A stretch of 64,000 nucleotides of DNA from Bacteroidota bacterium (GTDB lineage Bacteria; Bacteroidota; Bacteroidia; 2-12-FULL-35-15). This document shows positions 30,896 to 36,526 of this stretch, one piece after another. Within the stretch, counting starts at the first letter, position 1, and each line of letters starts with the position of its first letter. Below the pieces are notes generated by a model. That model searched no databases, was not told where the DNA came from, and saw only the letters and a program-made list of their open reading frames with translations. Where the stretch lies: contig CANNHN010000002.1 in NCBI GenBank assembly GCA_947504725.1, positions 62,001-126,000 of the forward strand, written 5' to 3'. A program made the translations under genes and the position numbers.

Positions 30896-31011
30896 ATAAT
30901 GTTCCGACTGCTTAAATCTTCAATATTTATATTTTGACAGATACTAGGAACCAATTATTTTCGTTGAATCGAGGCCAATTTTAGGCTAAAAAATATATTT
31001 TAAATGCAGAG

Positions 31012-31038
31012 GCAACCCTATAAAACCTTTTACGTCTA
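31012..31038 (+). promoter_or_regulatory. Putative ECF-type promoter upstream of the sigma gene
   Basis: gcaacc (31012-31017), 15 bp, then cgtcta (31033-31038). The same pair with the same 15-bp spacing occurs at 32782-32808 before the PorP-like gene. An AAC -35 core with a CGTC -10 core is the general form of ECF sigma promoters, so autoregulation by the downstream sigma factor is inferred. Confidence 0.6.
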
Positions 31039-31083
31039 TATACTTAGAAGAGAGGTGTCTTTAGCTATCGAAGCGCTCTATTT

Positions 31084-31650
31084 ATGAATGAAACCGACAT
31101 CATTAAAGGTTGTTTAAAGAATGATCGTGCAAGCCAAAAAGCTTTGTACGAACAGTTTTACAGTAAGATGTTAGGTATTTGTTTACGCTACTCCAAAAGT
31201 AGCGATGAAGCTAAAGACATTCTCCACGAAGGGTTTATGAAAGTGTTTGATAGTCTGAAGAATTTTAAATCTACAGGCTCATTCGAAGGTTGGATCAGAC
31301 GAATTATGGTGAACACCTCCATAGATCATTTGAGAAAAAATAAACAGAATTACCTTATTGTAAGTACTGTTTATGCCAACGAAAAAGCAAGTAACGTAGC
31401 AGAAGAAATTAGTGATGATGATTTAGCGCTGCACATTGATAAAGAAGAAATTTTAAGAGCAGTGCAAGAATTAACACCCGCTTATCGAACCGTTTTTAAT
31501 TTGTATGTAATTGAAGAATACACGCACAAAGAGATAGCCGAATTGCTTGATATTAGTGAAGGAACCTCTAAATCAAACCTTTCGAAAGCAAAATTTAACT
31601 TGAGAAAAAACTTGATGCATCACATAAAACCAATTGTTAATGGAAAATAA
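31084..31650 (+). CDS. ECF-type RNA polymerase sigma factor
   Basis: 188 residues with sigma-70 region 2 (~25-90; KDILHEGFMKVFDSLKNF, SFEGWIRRIMVNTSIDHLRK) and region 4 (~125-180; LTPAYRTVFNLYVIEEYTHKEIAELL then the recognition helix ISEGTSKSNLSKAKFNLRKNL). There is no region 1 or 3, so it is an ECF (group 4) factor. The next gene overlaps it by 11 bp and encodes a one-span membrane protein in the position of an anti-sigma factor. A promoter motif shared with the PorP-like gene suggests a regulon that includes type IX secretion; in Porphyromonas gingivalis the ECF factor SigP controls T9SS genes. Confidence 0.93.
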   Translation: MNETDIIKGCLKNDRASQKALYEQFYSKMLGICLRYSKSSDEAKDILHEGFMKVFDSLKNFKSTGSFEGWIRRIMVNTSIDHLRKNKQNYLIVSTVYANEKASNVAEEISDDDLALHIDKEEILRAVQELTPAYRTVFNLYVIEEYTHKEIAELLDISEGTSKSNLSKAKFNLRKNLMHHIKPIVNGK

Positions 31651-32359
31651 TACTCCTCCAAGTAAACTTGATGAAACCATAAAGGACAACTTAAGCACGT
31701 ATGATGCTAAGTATGATTCTGGCGACTGGGCTCGTATGGAGCGCATGCTAGATGCTACGCCTAAATCTATGGCTCCAAAAGGAACATACAATATGGCTAT
31801 TATTATTGGTGGAATTGTGCTAGTTGGAGGTTTTGCTATTTACAAAGGTGTTACTTCTTCTAAAACTACGACTACAGATACTGTAACAGAAACTCCTGTT
31901 ACACCAATTCAAAACAAAATTGAAGCAGCTCCAAAACCTGCTCCACCAGTTGTTGTTACAAATACAATTACAACAACTCCTCCAGTTGTAAAAGCAGAGC
32001 AAATTGTTGTTCCTGTTGTTAAAGCTACTGTTCCTGAAGTGAAAAACACCGTTGCTGTAATAGATACGAAGACAAAAGTTGTTGCCGAAAAAATAAAAAA
32101 GGATACTAAAACAAAGGTTAATGATTCAGACATTAACAAAAATCAAAAAGTGACTGTAATGGGCAACGAGCCTATTTTTGGTGATATGATTGACTCCTCA
32201 AAAGGAATTGTTAGAGAAACTAAAGAAAAAGAAAGTACCAAAAAAGAAGCTGTTAAAAAGGGAACAAGCAGCAATATTGGTTACGGAAGTTTGCTAAACT
32301 TAAATGCCGACAGTATCCGCAAACAAAAGGAACGGATGGTTAAGGATACTGTTAAATAA
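31640..32359 (+). CDS. Single-span membrane protein coupled to the sigma factor, possible anti-sigma factor
   Basis: 239 residues from the ATG at 31640, which overlaps the end of the sigma gene. Residues 1-50 are cytoplasmic and include YDAKYDSGDWARMERMLD, a motif I associate with the protein that follows ECF factors in Bacteroidota. One membrane span (~52-68) is followed by a long Pro/Thr/Val/Lys-rich low-complexity periplasmic region. No zinc-binding HxxxCxxC anti-sigma motif is present, so it is not a ZAS-type anti-sigma factor. Position, overlap and topology suggest it holds or senses for the sigma factor; the function is inferred. A terminator at 32381-32408 ends the operon. Confidence 0.8.
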   Translation: MENNTPPSKLDETIKDNLSTYDAKYDSGDWARMERMLDATPKSMAPKGTYNMAIIIGGIVLVGGFAIYKGVTSSKTTTTDTVTETPVTPIQNKIEAAPKPAPPVVVTNTITTTPPVVKAEQIVVPVVKATVPEVKNTVAVIDTKTKVVAEKIKKDTKTKVNDSDINKNQKVTVMGNEPIFGDMIDSSKGIVRETKEKESTKKEAVKKGTSSNIGYGSLLNLNADSIRKQKERMVKDTVK

Positions 32360-32380
32360 GATATACAACATCTCCATATT

Positions 32381-32408
32381 AAACCGCCCTACTCAATTGG
32401 GGCGGTTT
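32381..32408 (+). terminator. Rho-independent terminator of the sigma operon
   Basis: Stem aaaccgccc / gggcggttt (9 bp) with a 10-nt loop, followed by a T run, 21 bp after the stop codon. Confidence 0.88.
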
Positions 32409-32410
32409 TT

Positions 32411-32760
32411 TATACCCTCATCAGTCACGCGTCAAGAGAAACAAGTTATCCTTTCGGAGTCGCGCGTGGACGTCCACGAAAAGTGCGAACCACAAGTTTC
32501 GTGGCACCCAAGCGCTGACCATTTGCGGGTAAAACGAAAGCTTGGGGTTGGTTGAAGTTTATCCAGAGCGTAGTCGTGGGATGGTCGCTTTTTCTTTGGT
32601 TCTTTCTTTTGGAGAATCAAAAGAAAGAACGAAAAAACTTACGAAGCCTTAACGTCTAGGCTAACAGTAATGTTTATTATTCGCGTGTGGCTAATTGCGT
32701 TCACGACCTCTAATGAGGAGATTCCGTGTCGTGGCACGGAATGACGTTCCATAAAATTTT
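32411..32760. repeat. Non-coding gap of dispersed-repeat material
   Basis: No credible gene is seen here. It holds a 14-bp perfect palindrome cgtggacgtccacg (32465-32478), a 12-bp inverted repeat gttctttctttt / aaaagaaagaac with an 8-nt loop (32599-32630), and a family A palindrome attccgtg / cacggaat (32721-32742). The family A copy matches, in reverse orientation, the one at 40492-40530. G+C is higher than in the flanking genes. Confidence 0.6.
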
Positions 32761-32781
32761 TATAAAAAACCTTTTTTCCAG

Positions 32782-32808
32782 GCAACCCTTCCCAACTACC
32801 TCCGTCTT
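32782..32808 (+). promoter_or_regulatory. Putative ECF-type promoter of the PorP-like gene
   Basis: gcaacc (32782-32787), 15 bp, cgtctt (32803-32808), 28 nt upstream of the ATG at 32837. It matches the motif before the sigma gene at 31012-31038 in both elements and in spacing, and the bases around the elements (ggcaaccc, cgtct-at) are also shared. Confidence 0.6.
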
Positions 32809-32836: not shown

Positions 32837-33793
32837 ATGAAAAAAAGCTACTTATTATTTATATTGTTTTCACTAAGCTTGATAACTTATAAGTCCGCAA
32901 AAGCACAAGACCCTATTTTTACTCAATTCTATGCAAACCCTCTTTACCTTAACCCTGCTCTAGCTGGTTCAAACATCTGTCCACGTGTAGCCATAAATTA
33001 CAGAAACCAATGGCCTAATATTTCTGGAACCTATGTTACAACTAGTGCTTCTATTGATAGATATATTTTCGGAATAAAAAGCGGAATTGGATTACTAGTA
33101 ACGAATGACAATGCTGGAAACGGAACATTAAAAACAACCAATATTAGTGCTATCTATTCCAAACAAATTCAAATCAATCGTAATTTTTCTGTGAATGCTG
33201 GTTTGCAAGCAACTTACGGACAGAAATCCCTCGATTGGAGTAAATTGACTTTCGGAGATATGATTGATGAACGCAGAGGATTTGTGAAATATACCGAAGA
33301 AGTACCGGGGAAAAACCAACGCTCATATGTAGATTTTTCTGCTGGAGCAGTAATGTTTAGCAAATATGTTTTTGTGGGTTTTGCGGCACATCACTTAACT
33401 CAACCAAACGAAGGATTAATACATGACAGTAAATTGCCTGTAAAATTTACTGGTCATGCCGGAGCTACAATACCTGTTGGATCAAAAAGTAGCGAAACAA
33501 GCGTTTCACCTAATATTTTATACCAACAACAACAAGATTTTCGACAATTAAATTTGGGAGTTTATGTAACTAAAGGTTCTTTAGTTGGAGGATTGTGGTA
33601 TCGTAATCAAGATTCATTTATTCTTTTGGTGGGTTTTACACATGGTGTTTTTAAAGCTGGATATAGTTATGATGTTACCGTTTCGAAATTGACAAACGCA
33701 ACTGCAGGTTCACATGAGATTTCTGTCGGCATGAATTTTGGTTGTAAAAAACCACGACCGAAGTATCGTCCAAGTACATGTCCGAGTTTTTAA
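32837..33793 (+). CDS. PorP/SprF-family type IX secretion outer-membrane protein
   Basis: 318 residues from the ATG at 32837; the frame is open further upstream, but the signal peptide (KKSYLLFILFSLSLITYKSAKAQ) and the promoter at 32782 fix this start. The mature N-terminus DPIFTQFYANPLYLNPALAGS is the PorP/SprF signature, followed by a barrel of Gly/aromatic strands (GIGLLVTNDNAG, FVGFAAHHLTQP, KAGYSYDVTVSKL). Members bind PorE-type anchors or help to export and attach specific T9SS adhesins such as SprB. No large partner adhesin is adjacent, so its cargo could be any of the T9SS proteins in this window. Confidence 0.92.
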   Translation: MKKSYLLFILFSLSLITYKSAKAQDPIFTQFYANPLYLNPALAGSNICPRVAINYRNQWPNISGTYVTTSASIDRYIFGIKSGIGLLVTNDNAGNGTLKTTNISAIYSKQIQINRNFSVNAGLQATYGQKSLDWSKLTFGDMIDERRGFVKYTEEVPGKNQRSYVDFSAGAVMFSKYVFVGFAAHHLTQPNEGLIHDSKLPVKFTGHAGATIPVGSKSSETSVSPNILYQQQQDFRQLNLGVYVTKGSLVGGLWYRNQDSFILLVGFTHGVFKAGYSYDVTVSKLTNATAGSHEISVGMNFGCKKPRPKYRPSTCPSF

Positions 33794-34058: not shown

Positions 34059-35678
34059 CTAATTCCCCAAATAACTAATCTTAAATACCGTTCTTCTGTT
34101 TTGCTTATGTTCGGCATCGGAACACTCCACTCCATTAACACATTTATTGGTTAATTGACTTTCACCAAATCCTTTCGCAGTTAAACGTTTTTTATCGATT
34201 CCTTTTGTTGCAATATATTCCATTGCGGTGGTTGCTCTTTTTTGCGACAGCTCCATGTTGTACTCATCACTTGCAACAGCATCGGTATGTGCTTGTACTT
34301 CTATCACTAATTTCGGATTTCCATTCAATGCTTCTATCGCTTTTGCCAAAACAACTTCCGCTTCAGGCAAAATATCAAACGAGCCTGATGGATAGTAAAT
34401 GTTTTCGATAATCACCATTTCTGATTTGTCTTTCGAAAGTTTTAATGCTTTCAACCAAGGATCGATTGCGGAAATTTTTATCAATTGCGTTCTATCACTT
34501 GGCAACAATGTATATTTAAAATAACCCGCAGGATTGCGCATCAACTCTTTTATAATTTTTCCGTTTTCATCTGTTATCAAAATTTTATTTTCTGCAATGT
34601 TTTTTGATTCGGCACTATCTGTTTTAATAGTGTAATCCTCCCTAGGAGTTAATTTAGCGAACAAGAACGCACCAAAGGCATCTGTTTTTTTACTCGACAG
34701 AGCTTCTCCTTTCCCGTTCAACAATGTAACTGTAATGTTAGAAAGCGGAGTTTTACTTTCGTTGGATGATATTAATCTTCCTTTAATGTCAACCAACAAA
34801 GGTGCATCATCCAAAGTCATTAAACTCATTGTTGAATAGTCAGAAGGAAGAATTTGAAATTTAAATTTTTGATTCCCAACATCCGAAGAAGTTAATACTG
34901 CATTCCCATTTTCATCGGCAATAATGAACTTCAATTTTTTTGCAAGTGGCGTATCTGTTACATCCATCGTTAAAAAATATCCTTGGTCGTATGGTAAATT
35001 TTCAAACTTAAATCTTCCATCTGGATCTGTTTTCGAAACAAAAAAGATTTCACCTTTTTCATTCACCAAATAAACTTCACGGTTTTGGAAAGGTGATTTT
35101 CCATCATCCGATAAAATTTTTCCAGCAAACGTTACTTTCACTTTCGAATCGTTAATTAAGCGGCCTACTTTAATAATTTTCGTAGAAGTGTTGTGATAAA
35201 TGTCCGAAACTTCAATGTCGATTTTACGAACATCGCCTTTTAGAGGAACGTGGTATTTAAATTCGGGATTAAGTTCATTCGCATTGTACTTCGCTAACAC
35301 ACCGTTAATTTTTATGAATTCAATCTGACTTTTATCTTTTACATATCCTTCAATAATCACGTCAATTTGATTGTCGAAAACGTTAATGAAATTATTCATA
35401 TCAATTTGAGGATATTCAATTTTGATATCAGGAGTATCGCTTTCACGATTCATTTCATACAATTTCTGTTTGGTATCGGTCAATAATTTTTCTGTCTCCG
35501 GGTTTTTAGAAATACTAACTGCACTCGAAAAATCTTTTATCGCTTCCTTGTAATTATTTGATTCCAAATAACATTTTGCTCGGGAACTGAATACGTCAGC
35601 ATTCTTATCATCAAGTTTTATATAGTTCGTAAAATCATTTATAGCACTTTGGTATTTACTAGTTTTAATAGCAATCAT
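34059..35678 (-). CDS. OmpA-family protein, C-terminal part of a frameshifted TPR-OmpA gene
   Basis: 539 residues as read here. It starts inside a TPR (YQSAINDFTNYIKLDDKNADVF...), continues with three or four carboxypeptidase-regulatory-like beta domains (~185-400; GKILSDDGKSPFQNREVYLVNEKGE, then a related unit) and ends with an OmpA peptidoglycan-binding domain (~425-539; VQAHTDAVAS with the Asp, QNRRTVFKI with the Arg). It has no signal peptide of its own, which an outer-membrane-associated protein needs. The missing N-terminal part is the gene just upstream; restoring one base at 35721-35723 joins them into a single 822-residue protein. Confidence 0.85.
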   Translation of the reverse strand: MIAIKTSKYQSAINDFTNYIKLDDKNADVFSSRAKCYLESNNYKEAIKDFSSAVSISKNPETEKLLTDTKQKLYEMNRESDTPDIKIEYPQIDMNNFINVFDNQIDVIIEGYVKDKSQIEFIKINGVLAKYNANELNPEFKYHVPLKGDVRKIDIEVSDIYHNTSTKIIKVGRLINDSKVKVTFAGKILSDDGKSPFQNREVYLVNEKGEIFFVSKTDPDGRFKFENLPYDQGYFLTMDVTDTPLAKKLKFIIADENGNAVLTSSDVGNQKFKFQILPSDYSTMSLMTLDDAPLLVDIKGRLISSNESKTPLSNITVTLLNGKGEALSSKKTDAFGAFLFAKLTPREDYTIKTDSAESKNIAENKILITDENGKIIKELMRNPAGYFKYTLLPSDRTQLIKISAIDPWLKALKLSKDKSEMVIIENIYYPSGSFDILPEAEVVLAKAIEALNGNPKLVIEVQAHTDAVASDEYNMELSQKRATTAMEYIATKGIDKKRLTAKGFGESQLTNKCVNGVECSDAEHKQNRRTVFKISYLGN

Positions 35679-36526
35679 AGCACGTTGGTAAATGCACTCT
35701 TTATCCTTGCATTCATCGACAAAGCTTTATCTAAATCATCTGTTGCTGGACCAAAATCATTTTTAAGGAAATGAGGAAAACTTCTATAATAGTAAACACG
35801 ATAGTTCTGAGGGAGAATAGAATCTTTCACATCAATCTTTACAGCTGTTGTATAATTTTTTATCACATCATCATACATTTTTGCTTTTGTTTGAGCCATT
35901 GCCAAATTGGTATAATAAGGCTTAAACATCGGCTGGTTCTTTTCTGTCAACCCATTCATGATAGTAACCGCACGTTGGTATTCGGTTACAGCAACAGCAT
36001 AGTCTTTCAAACTATCCTTGCTCATTCCTTTTAAATAATGTAATCGGTGGTTGTATTGATTTTTTGCAAGAGCCGCGTCACAAGTTGCCAAAGCATCCGC
36101 AAACTTTTTTGTATTGATTAAACACCAAGCTTTTTGTTCGAATGCTTCAATATTATCTTTATCATCTTCCAGCACCCTGTCCACATCAAACAAAGCTTGC
36201 GGCCACTTTCCTATACTTATTTTTAAGGCTGCTGCTTTTAAATATAATTTTTCGTCCTTTTTAATATTCAAGGCATTGTCATAATCGGCAATTGCTTTTT
36301 CAAGTTCTTTTTTAGTTTCATATGCTTTCCCTCGCTCAATCATCACCTCATCATCTTTGGGTTTTAATTCGAGCGCTTTTGTAAAAAGTGCAATTGCTTC
36401 ATCTGTCTTCCCATCTTTAGCGGCATCTTTTCCTTGAGAAAACAATTTGCCTGCACTTTGAGAAAAAGAGTTGATTGTTCCAGAAAGAAATAGAATAAAA
36501 AAGAATAAACGGAGTGTTTGTTTCAT
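35675..36526 (-). CDS. TPR protein, N-terminal part of a frameshifted TPR-OmpA gene
   Basis: 283 residues: signal peptide (cut near INSFSQ) and about six TPRs (~25-270). The last ~13 residues (MNARIKSAFTNVL) have no TPR character. In the alternative frame the DNA there encodes AFVDECKDKECIYQRAM, which continues directly into the TPR of the downstream gene. The two frames overlap as ATGA. The parsimonious reading is one gene with a one-base deletion in an AAA run (TTT on the coding strand). Translational coupling of two separate proteins is possible but would leave the OmpA part without a signal peptide. Confidence 0.85.
   Translation of the reverse strand: MKQTLRLFFFILFLSGTINSFSQSAGKLFSQGKDAAKDGKTDEAIALFTKALELKPKDDEVMIERGKAYETKKELEKAIADYDNALNIKKDEKLYLKAAALKISIGKWPQALFDVDRVLEDDKDNIEAFEQKAWCLINTKKFADALATCDAALAKNQYNHRLHYLKGMSKDSLKDYAVAVTEYQRAVTIMNGLTEKNQPMFKPYYTNLAMAQTKAKMYDDVIKNYTTAVKIDVKDSILPQNYRVYYYRSFPHFLKNDFGPATDDLDKALSMNARIKSAFTNVL

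Follow-up and report, generated by a model that had tools for sequence, protein, structure and literature searches.

A conserved two-box promoter motif probably joins an ECF sigma factor operon, a PorP-family gene and type IX secretion operons in a Bacteroidota lineage

The same conserved two-box motif, GGCAACC and CGTCW at a distance of 14-15 nt, precedes an ECF sigma factor gene and genes of the type IX secretion system (T9SS) in a Bacteroidota genome, and this sigma factor therefore very probably turns on both. The sequence under study, hereafter the window, comprises 64,000 nt of a Bacteroidota bacterium (GCA_947504725.1, contig CANNHN010000002.1, positions 62,001-126,000 of the forward strand). 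Judging from sequence evidence, we consider it highly likely that one sigma factor (31084-31650) drives both promoters of the window as well as those of the gldK-N and ruvA-sprA operons, and that an anti-sigma factor restrains it.

An earlier, sequence-only reading of the window had noted the same motif with the same spacing before the sigma gene and a PorP-like gene, and this was confirmed: GCAACC-N15-CGTCT is present without mismatches at 31012-31037 and 32782-32807, both on the forward strand. The 64 kb contain no other exact match, where 0.01 would be expected, and not one of 100 shuffled sequences had two. The full block common to both sites is AGGCAACC-N14/15-CGTCT followed by TAT-like bases. 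Accordingly delimited, the ECF-type promoter of the sigma operon spans 31011-31037 (+; -35 box GGCAACC at 31011-31017, 15-nt spacer, -10 box CGTCT at 31033-31037) and ends 46 nt before the ATG at 31084, while that of the PorP gene spans 32781-32807 (+; GGCAACC at 32781-32787, 15-nt spacer, CGTCT at 32803-32807) and ends 29 nt before the ATG at 32837. Many ECF groups share AAC and CGTC cores. Since AAC-N16-CGTCT, a shorter core, was found 32 times when one mismatch was allowed, versus 31.4 expected, i.e. at chance frequency, it is the longer -35 block that carries the signal. It should be added that our literature search returned no paper naming the GGCAACC/CGTC motif.

The sigma factor (31084-31650, +, 188 aa) contains the Sigma70_r2 and r4_2 domains, both above gathering score (PF04542, 59.8 bits; PF08281, 60.5 bits), and scores 102.8 against TIGR02937 (cutoff 42.9); the two-box AAC/CGTC motif before its own gene also speaks for membership in the ECF group. 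Its score against NF058625, the PG0214-family equivalog, is 85.6 and thus under the cutoff of 130. The mRNA leader (31038-31083, +) is strongly conserved, relatives showing the pattern CGTAGAAGAGAGGTGTTTTTAGCT...AGCGCT. The next gene, which shares 11 nt with the sigma gene, encodes a 239-aa protein (31640-32359, +) that by architecture and position is the probable cognate anti-sigma factor: its N-terminal part holds a conserved motif (DETIKDNLSTYDAKYDSGDWARMERMLD), a single transmembrane segment follows, and beyond a variable linker the C-terminal block (GNEPIFGDMIDSSKG...NADSIRK) is conserved as well. A Pfam search with this protein gave no match, and neither a barrel nor any other domain was seen. 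A terminator-like repeat (ccgccc...gggcgg and a T run; 32384-32411, +), read by eye, lies 3' of the sigma/anti-sigma operon, and similar repeats occupy the terminator position in several relatives; the PorP gene should therefore need a promoter of its own. The PorP/SprF-family outer-membrane protein (32837-33793, +, 318 aa) is assigned by TIGR03519 (249.6 bits, cutoff 90.55) and PF11751 (212.3 bits, cutoff 22.3).

Between terminator and PorP promoter, region 32420-32770 holds a few hundred extra bases as compared with four related loci (L041-L044), which resemble an insertion of a repeat-rich element with the promoter left intact. On the other side, a TPR gene and a TPR/carboxypeptidase-regulatory/OmpA gene (34059-36526, -) run convergent to PorP; the latter shows some resemblance to PorE, far under the cutoff. 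This pair is also convergent in L040 and L041 and was not found in most relatives.

A scan of the genome collection with the sigma factor as query returned 59 loci. Nineteen of these, at 67-98% sigma identity, keep the order sigma, anti-sigma-like, PorP (L046 is without PorP at this place); all of the 19 but L056 carry the motif, with CGTCT or CGTCA as its -10 box, at 63-73 nt before the start of sigma. It also precedes PorP in nearly all close-clade genomes that keep PorP at the locus. The spacer sequence varies, and the DNA 5' of the -35 box is not conserved. The motif is found at the sigma gene in 18 of 18 close-clade genomes, in five other congeners and, at about 48-54% sigma identity, in several loci of Crocinitomicaceae type, which supports the autoregulation part of the earlier proposal; no PorP gene was seen near sigma in the flanking stretches examined of the Crocinitomicaceae-type loci.

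Several other features of these loci were recorded. An imperfect dyad at 31025-31056 (ACCTTTTACG...CGTAGAAGAGAGGT in relatives) spans the -10 box of the sigma promoter and is kept in close relatives, with traces even in relatives that are without the ECF motif (L293, L294, L296). An RNA structure or riboregulator at this dyad was considered and rejected, as compensatory pair changes are absent. In Bacteroidales sigma homologs, an inverted repeat (about GGTTTTACTG...CAGTAAAACC), which may be an operator or an RNA hairpin, takes the place of the GGCAACC/CGTC motif directly before the start codon (L070, L071, L075, L077-L081, L083, L085-L087). Furthermore, the anti-sigma-like proteins of L060, L064, L065 and L068 carry several tandem N-terminal anti-sigma motifs before the membrane helix.

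Scanning the genome was the check suggested for the earlier reading, and its outcome was favourable, as the motif precedes T9SS promoters. In the 3.4-Mb genome GGCAACC-N14/15-CGTCW has three matches: the sigma site, the PorP site and C3:58660. The last of these is 44 nt upstream of the HutG-like gene that opens the T9SS core operon (PorP-GldK-GldL-GldM-GldN-GldN), whose proteins, the HutG-like one excepted, score above curated cutoffs. With one mismatch, GGCAACT-N15-CGTCTT (C2:12807) is situated 13-14 nt before ruvA, which is followed by sprA/sov (2574 bits), the T9SS translocon. The motif is thus common to sigma, PorP, HutG-like/PorP/GldK-N and ruvA-sprA, as in a SigP-type regulon, and the earlier proposal that the sigma factor activates itself and part of the T9SS is supported as far as sequence can do so. 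The T9SS promoters inspected were those of the PorP paralogs, the gldK operon and ruvA-sprA. Allowing up to two mismatches in the own genome gave 42 sites versus 67 for the reversed control, i.e. no enrichment, and the analysis was therefore restricted to sites that are exact or have comparative support. Summed over 36 species of the genus, there were 89 matches to the pattern versus 26 to the reversed control (binomial p about 1e-9). Matches within the coding sequences of coaBC and the HutG-like gene look like coding conservation and were discarded as promoters.

Two arrangements of the motif outside these operons were observed. One copy lies between Ddl-like and PASTA-type genes in four species (L130, L135, L159 and, in the own genome, L186 at G000:C6:79048) and points against both genes, possibly giving an antisense RNA. 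At six loci (L167, L169, L171, L174, L179, L181) back-to-back copies, GGCAACC...CGTCW facing GGTTGC, resemble divergent ECF promoters, and some adjoin genes of secreted-looking proteins.

Comparison within the genus showed that motif and sigma factor changed together. In group A (sigma identity at least 76%) the motif stands at all 18 sigma genes and at ruvA in all 17 testable genomes. The five genomes of group B (67-71% identity) have it at sigma, once as GGCAACG, and one of the five has it at ruvA. In the 11 genomes of group C (56-73% identity) it is absent at both genes, and no PorP gene adjoins sigma in the seven loci read with flanks. Overall, where sigma has the motif the ruvA site is present in 18 of 22 species, and where sigma is without it the ruvA site is present in none of 12 (Fisher 3e-6, a value that ignores shared ancestry). 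Groups A and B keep SEGTSKSNL as the turn/recognition helix of region 4.2, and Crocinitomicaceae-type sigmas have SEGTSKSN or a close variant; in all 11 sigmas of group C it is altered (SEETSESNL, SEDTSESNL, SESTSKSNL and others). Such a co-change would be expected if this helix reads GGCAACC. Some distant Bacteroidales sigmas keep SEGTSKSNL and are without the GGCAACC/CGTC motif, and the motif is therefore not determined by the helix alone. In the Crocinitomicaceae-type and other distant genomes examined, ruvA was without the site.

These data also bear on who reads the motif. It could serve as a promoter for several ECF sigmas, the neighbouring one being one user among others and the T9SS regulon their joint output. 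The wide occurrence of AAC/CGTC cores among ECF groups would allow this, related sigmas in other Bacteroidota have similar AACC...CGTC/CATC/CGTT sites, and the own genome encodes a sigma paralog at 44% identity; the motif could be read by this or other ECF sigmas too. For Flavobacterium psychrophilum, the authors state that the SM6 promoters could be read by several sigmas (PMC9723704). We nevertheless regard this explanation as improbable, as the genome holds only three exact sites, and where sigma and ruvA are without the motif, the recognition helix of precisely the neighbouring sigma is changed.

Recognition by the neighbouring sigma being preferred, the extent of its regulon has to be weighed. 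The sigma factor might be autoregulated and control PorP, with the gldK-N and ruvA-sprA sites being chance or minor ones and no T9SS regulon existing. The gldK-operon site is indeed found in a minority of relatives, about seven. Moreover, among the 20 PorP paralogs of the own genome a separate site is seen only for that of the window; for the remaining 19, the best match in 400 nt upstream has four or more mismatches, and they were ruled out as direct targets. Against this stand the results of a weight matrix trained on the sigma and PorP sites alone. Of 33 loci it placed a ruvA site in 19, belonging to 17 distinct genomes; these sites lie at a distance of 14-78 nt from the start and score 11.9-27.5, compared to a shuffled 99th percentile of 5.6; genome G013 adds a further ruvA site to these. 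The ruvA and gldK-operon sites of the own genome score 20.9 and 21.0, respectively, and none of 30 shuffled copies of the window reached 20. With the ruvA site present in 17 of 17 clade genomes at such short distance, we judge the absence of a T9SS regulon to be quite improbable. That the repeated block is the site of a DNA-binding regulator, e.g. PorX or a repressor on the dyad 31025-31056, is very improbable: the dyad does overlap the -10 box at the sigma gene, and PorX, which one group reports to bind the porT and sigP promoters (PMC8265659), is encoded here, but a pair of boxes held 14-15 nt apart in one orientation and close to the start codons, with a spacer of free sequence, fits an ECF promoter, and the PorP promoters, as a control, have no comparable dyad.

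The sigma-driven regulon would then operate as follows. Free sigma factor would join RNA polymerase and read GGCAACC as the -35 and CGTCW as the -10 box. It would transcribe its own operon, including the overlapping anti-sigma gene, and the PorP/SprF-family gene about 0.5 kb past that operon. Elsewhere in the genome it would transcribe the T9SS core operon, HutG-like/PorP/GldK-GldL-GldM-GldN-GldN, and ruvA-sprA, the source of the outer-membrane translocon. The membrane-anchored protein of 31640-32359 would hold sigma in check as long as no envelope or secretion signal comes in. A PorX homolog (REC and PglZ domains) is encoded in the own genome, and by analogy with Porphyromonas gingivalis a PorX link is possible.

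ECF control of the T9SS has already been reported for two other Bacteroidota, and the system of the window is therefore a variant; its new elements are the defined motif, the probable anti-sigma factor and the PorP link. In P. gingivalis, SigP (PGN_0274) was reported to bind the porT, ruvA, porV and porP promoters (PMC4800418), to autoregulate (PMC7712824) and to take part in a feed-forward with PorX (PMC8265659). An autoregulating ECF sigma acting at porP and ruvA(-sov) is common to these accounts and to the reading proposed here, and both genomes encode PorX. The published SigP motif, C/T-AAA..., differs from GGCAACC/CGTC (PMC4800418); furthermore, no anti-sigma factor is named for SigP, while here the probable anti-sigma gene overlaps the sigma gene and is followed by PorP. 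The SM6 promoters of F. psychrophilum, with mapped starts and a CGT -10 box, drive an ECF/anti-sigma pair and, among T9SS genes, those for GldN, PorU and a homolog of a PorM/N-interacting protein (PMC9723704). Common to both are the CGT -10 box at T9SS genes and at an ECF/anti-sigma pair; the targets differ in the published selection, which is without PorP and ruvA-sprA, and a GGCAACC -35 box does not appear in the text of the paper (PMC9723704).

In Bacteroides, the anti-sigma factors Dma1/Dma2, acting with the ECF21 sigmas Das1/Das2, span both membranes by means of a fused barrel (PMC13088901). As there, sigma adjoins anti-sigma in the window, and one distant homolog (L065) shows a Dma-like layout with an outer-membrane barrel. 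In contrast, the anti-sigma factor of the window does not have the Das/Dma series of cytoplasmic domain, inner-membrane helix and C-terminal barrel: the barrel is missing, and a separate PorP barrel gene follows with a promoter of the same type. Proteins of the PorP/SprF family act as shuttles for type B cargo, and their genes usually lie directly 3' of the cargo gene (PMC12618676). The window resembles such type B CTD substrate pairs (PMC12618676, PMC9143113) in having the PorP/SprF gene directly 3' of a would-be partner, and differs in that this partner is the probable anti-sigma factor, not a secreted adhesin, and that the promoter is separate.

Because the anti-sigma factor occupies the usual place of a type B substrate before PorP, it is conceivable, albeit doubtful, that it monitors type IX secretion, its C-terminal part reaching the outer membrane and being handled like a type B cargo tail. 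The PorP/SprF shuttle or the T9SS would handle this tail and so pass the state of the apparatus straight to sigma. One hint is the conserved C-terminus after a variable linker. In Crocinitomicaceae-type anti-sigmas a PKD domain (Z 10-11) is followed by some 100 C-terminal residues, which match CHU_C at E 4e-4 to 5e-3 (17-21 bits, under the cutoff of 27) and TIGR04131 at 13-14 (under the cutoff of 35); PKD together with this weak type B T9SS signal-like domain is hinting at secretion-status sensing. The predicted C-terminal fold (pLDDT 85) gave Z 6.6-7.3 against the CTDs of NucA, RemZ, RemA and PorZ, which is the range of unrelated folds, and a Foldseek search with the domain had no match at E <=0.001.

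It is not settled how the quantity of T9SS machinery is adjusted in Bacteroidota: for the SigP of P. gingivalis there is no agreed motif, and for the mapped promoters of F. psychrophilum no proven sigma. The present lineage, which allows motif, sigma, probable anti-sigma, PorP and the motor and translocon operons to be read together, provides a testable promoter code, and, with it, a natural series of species in which sigma helix and promoter changed together.
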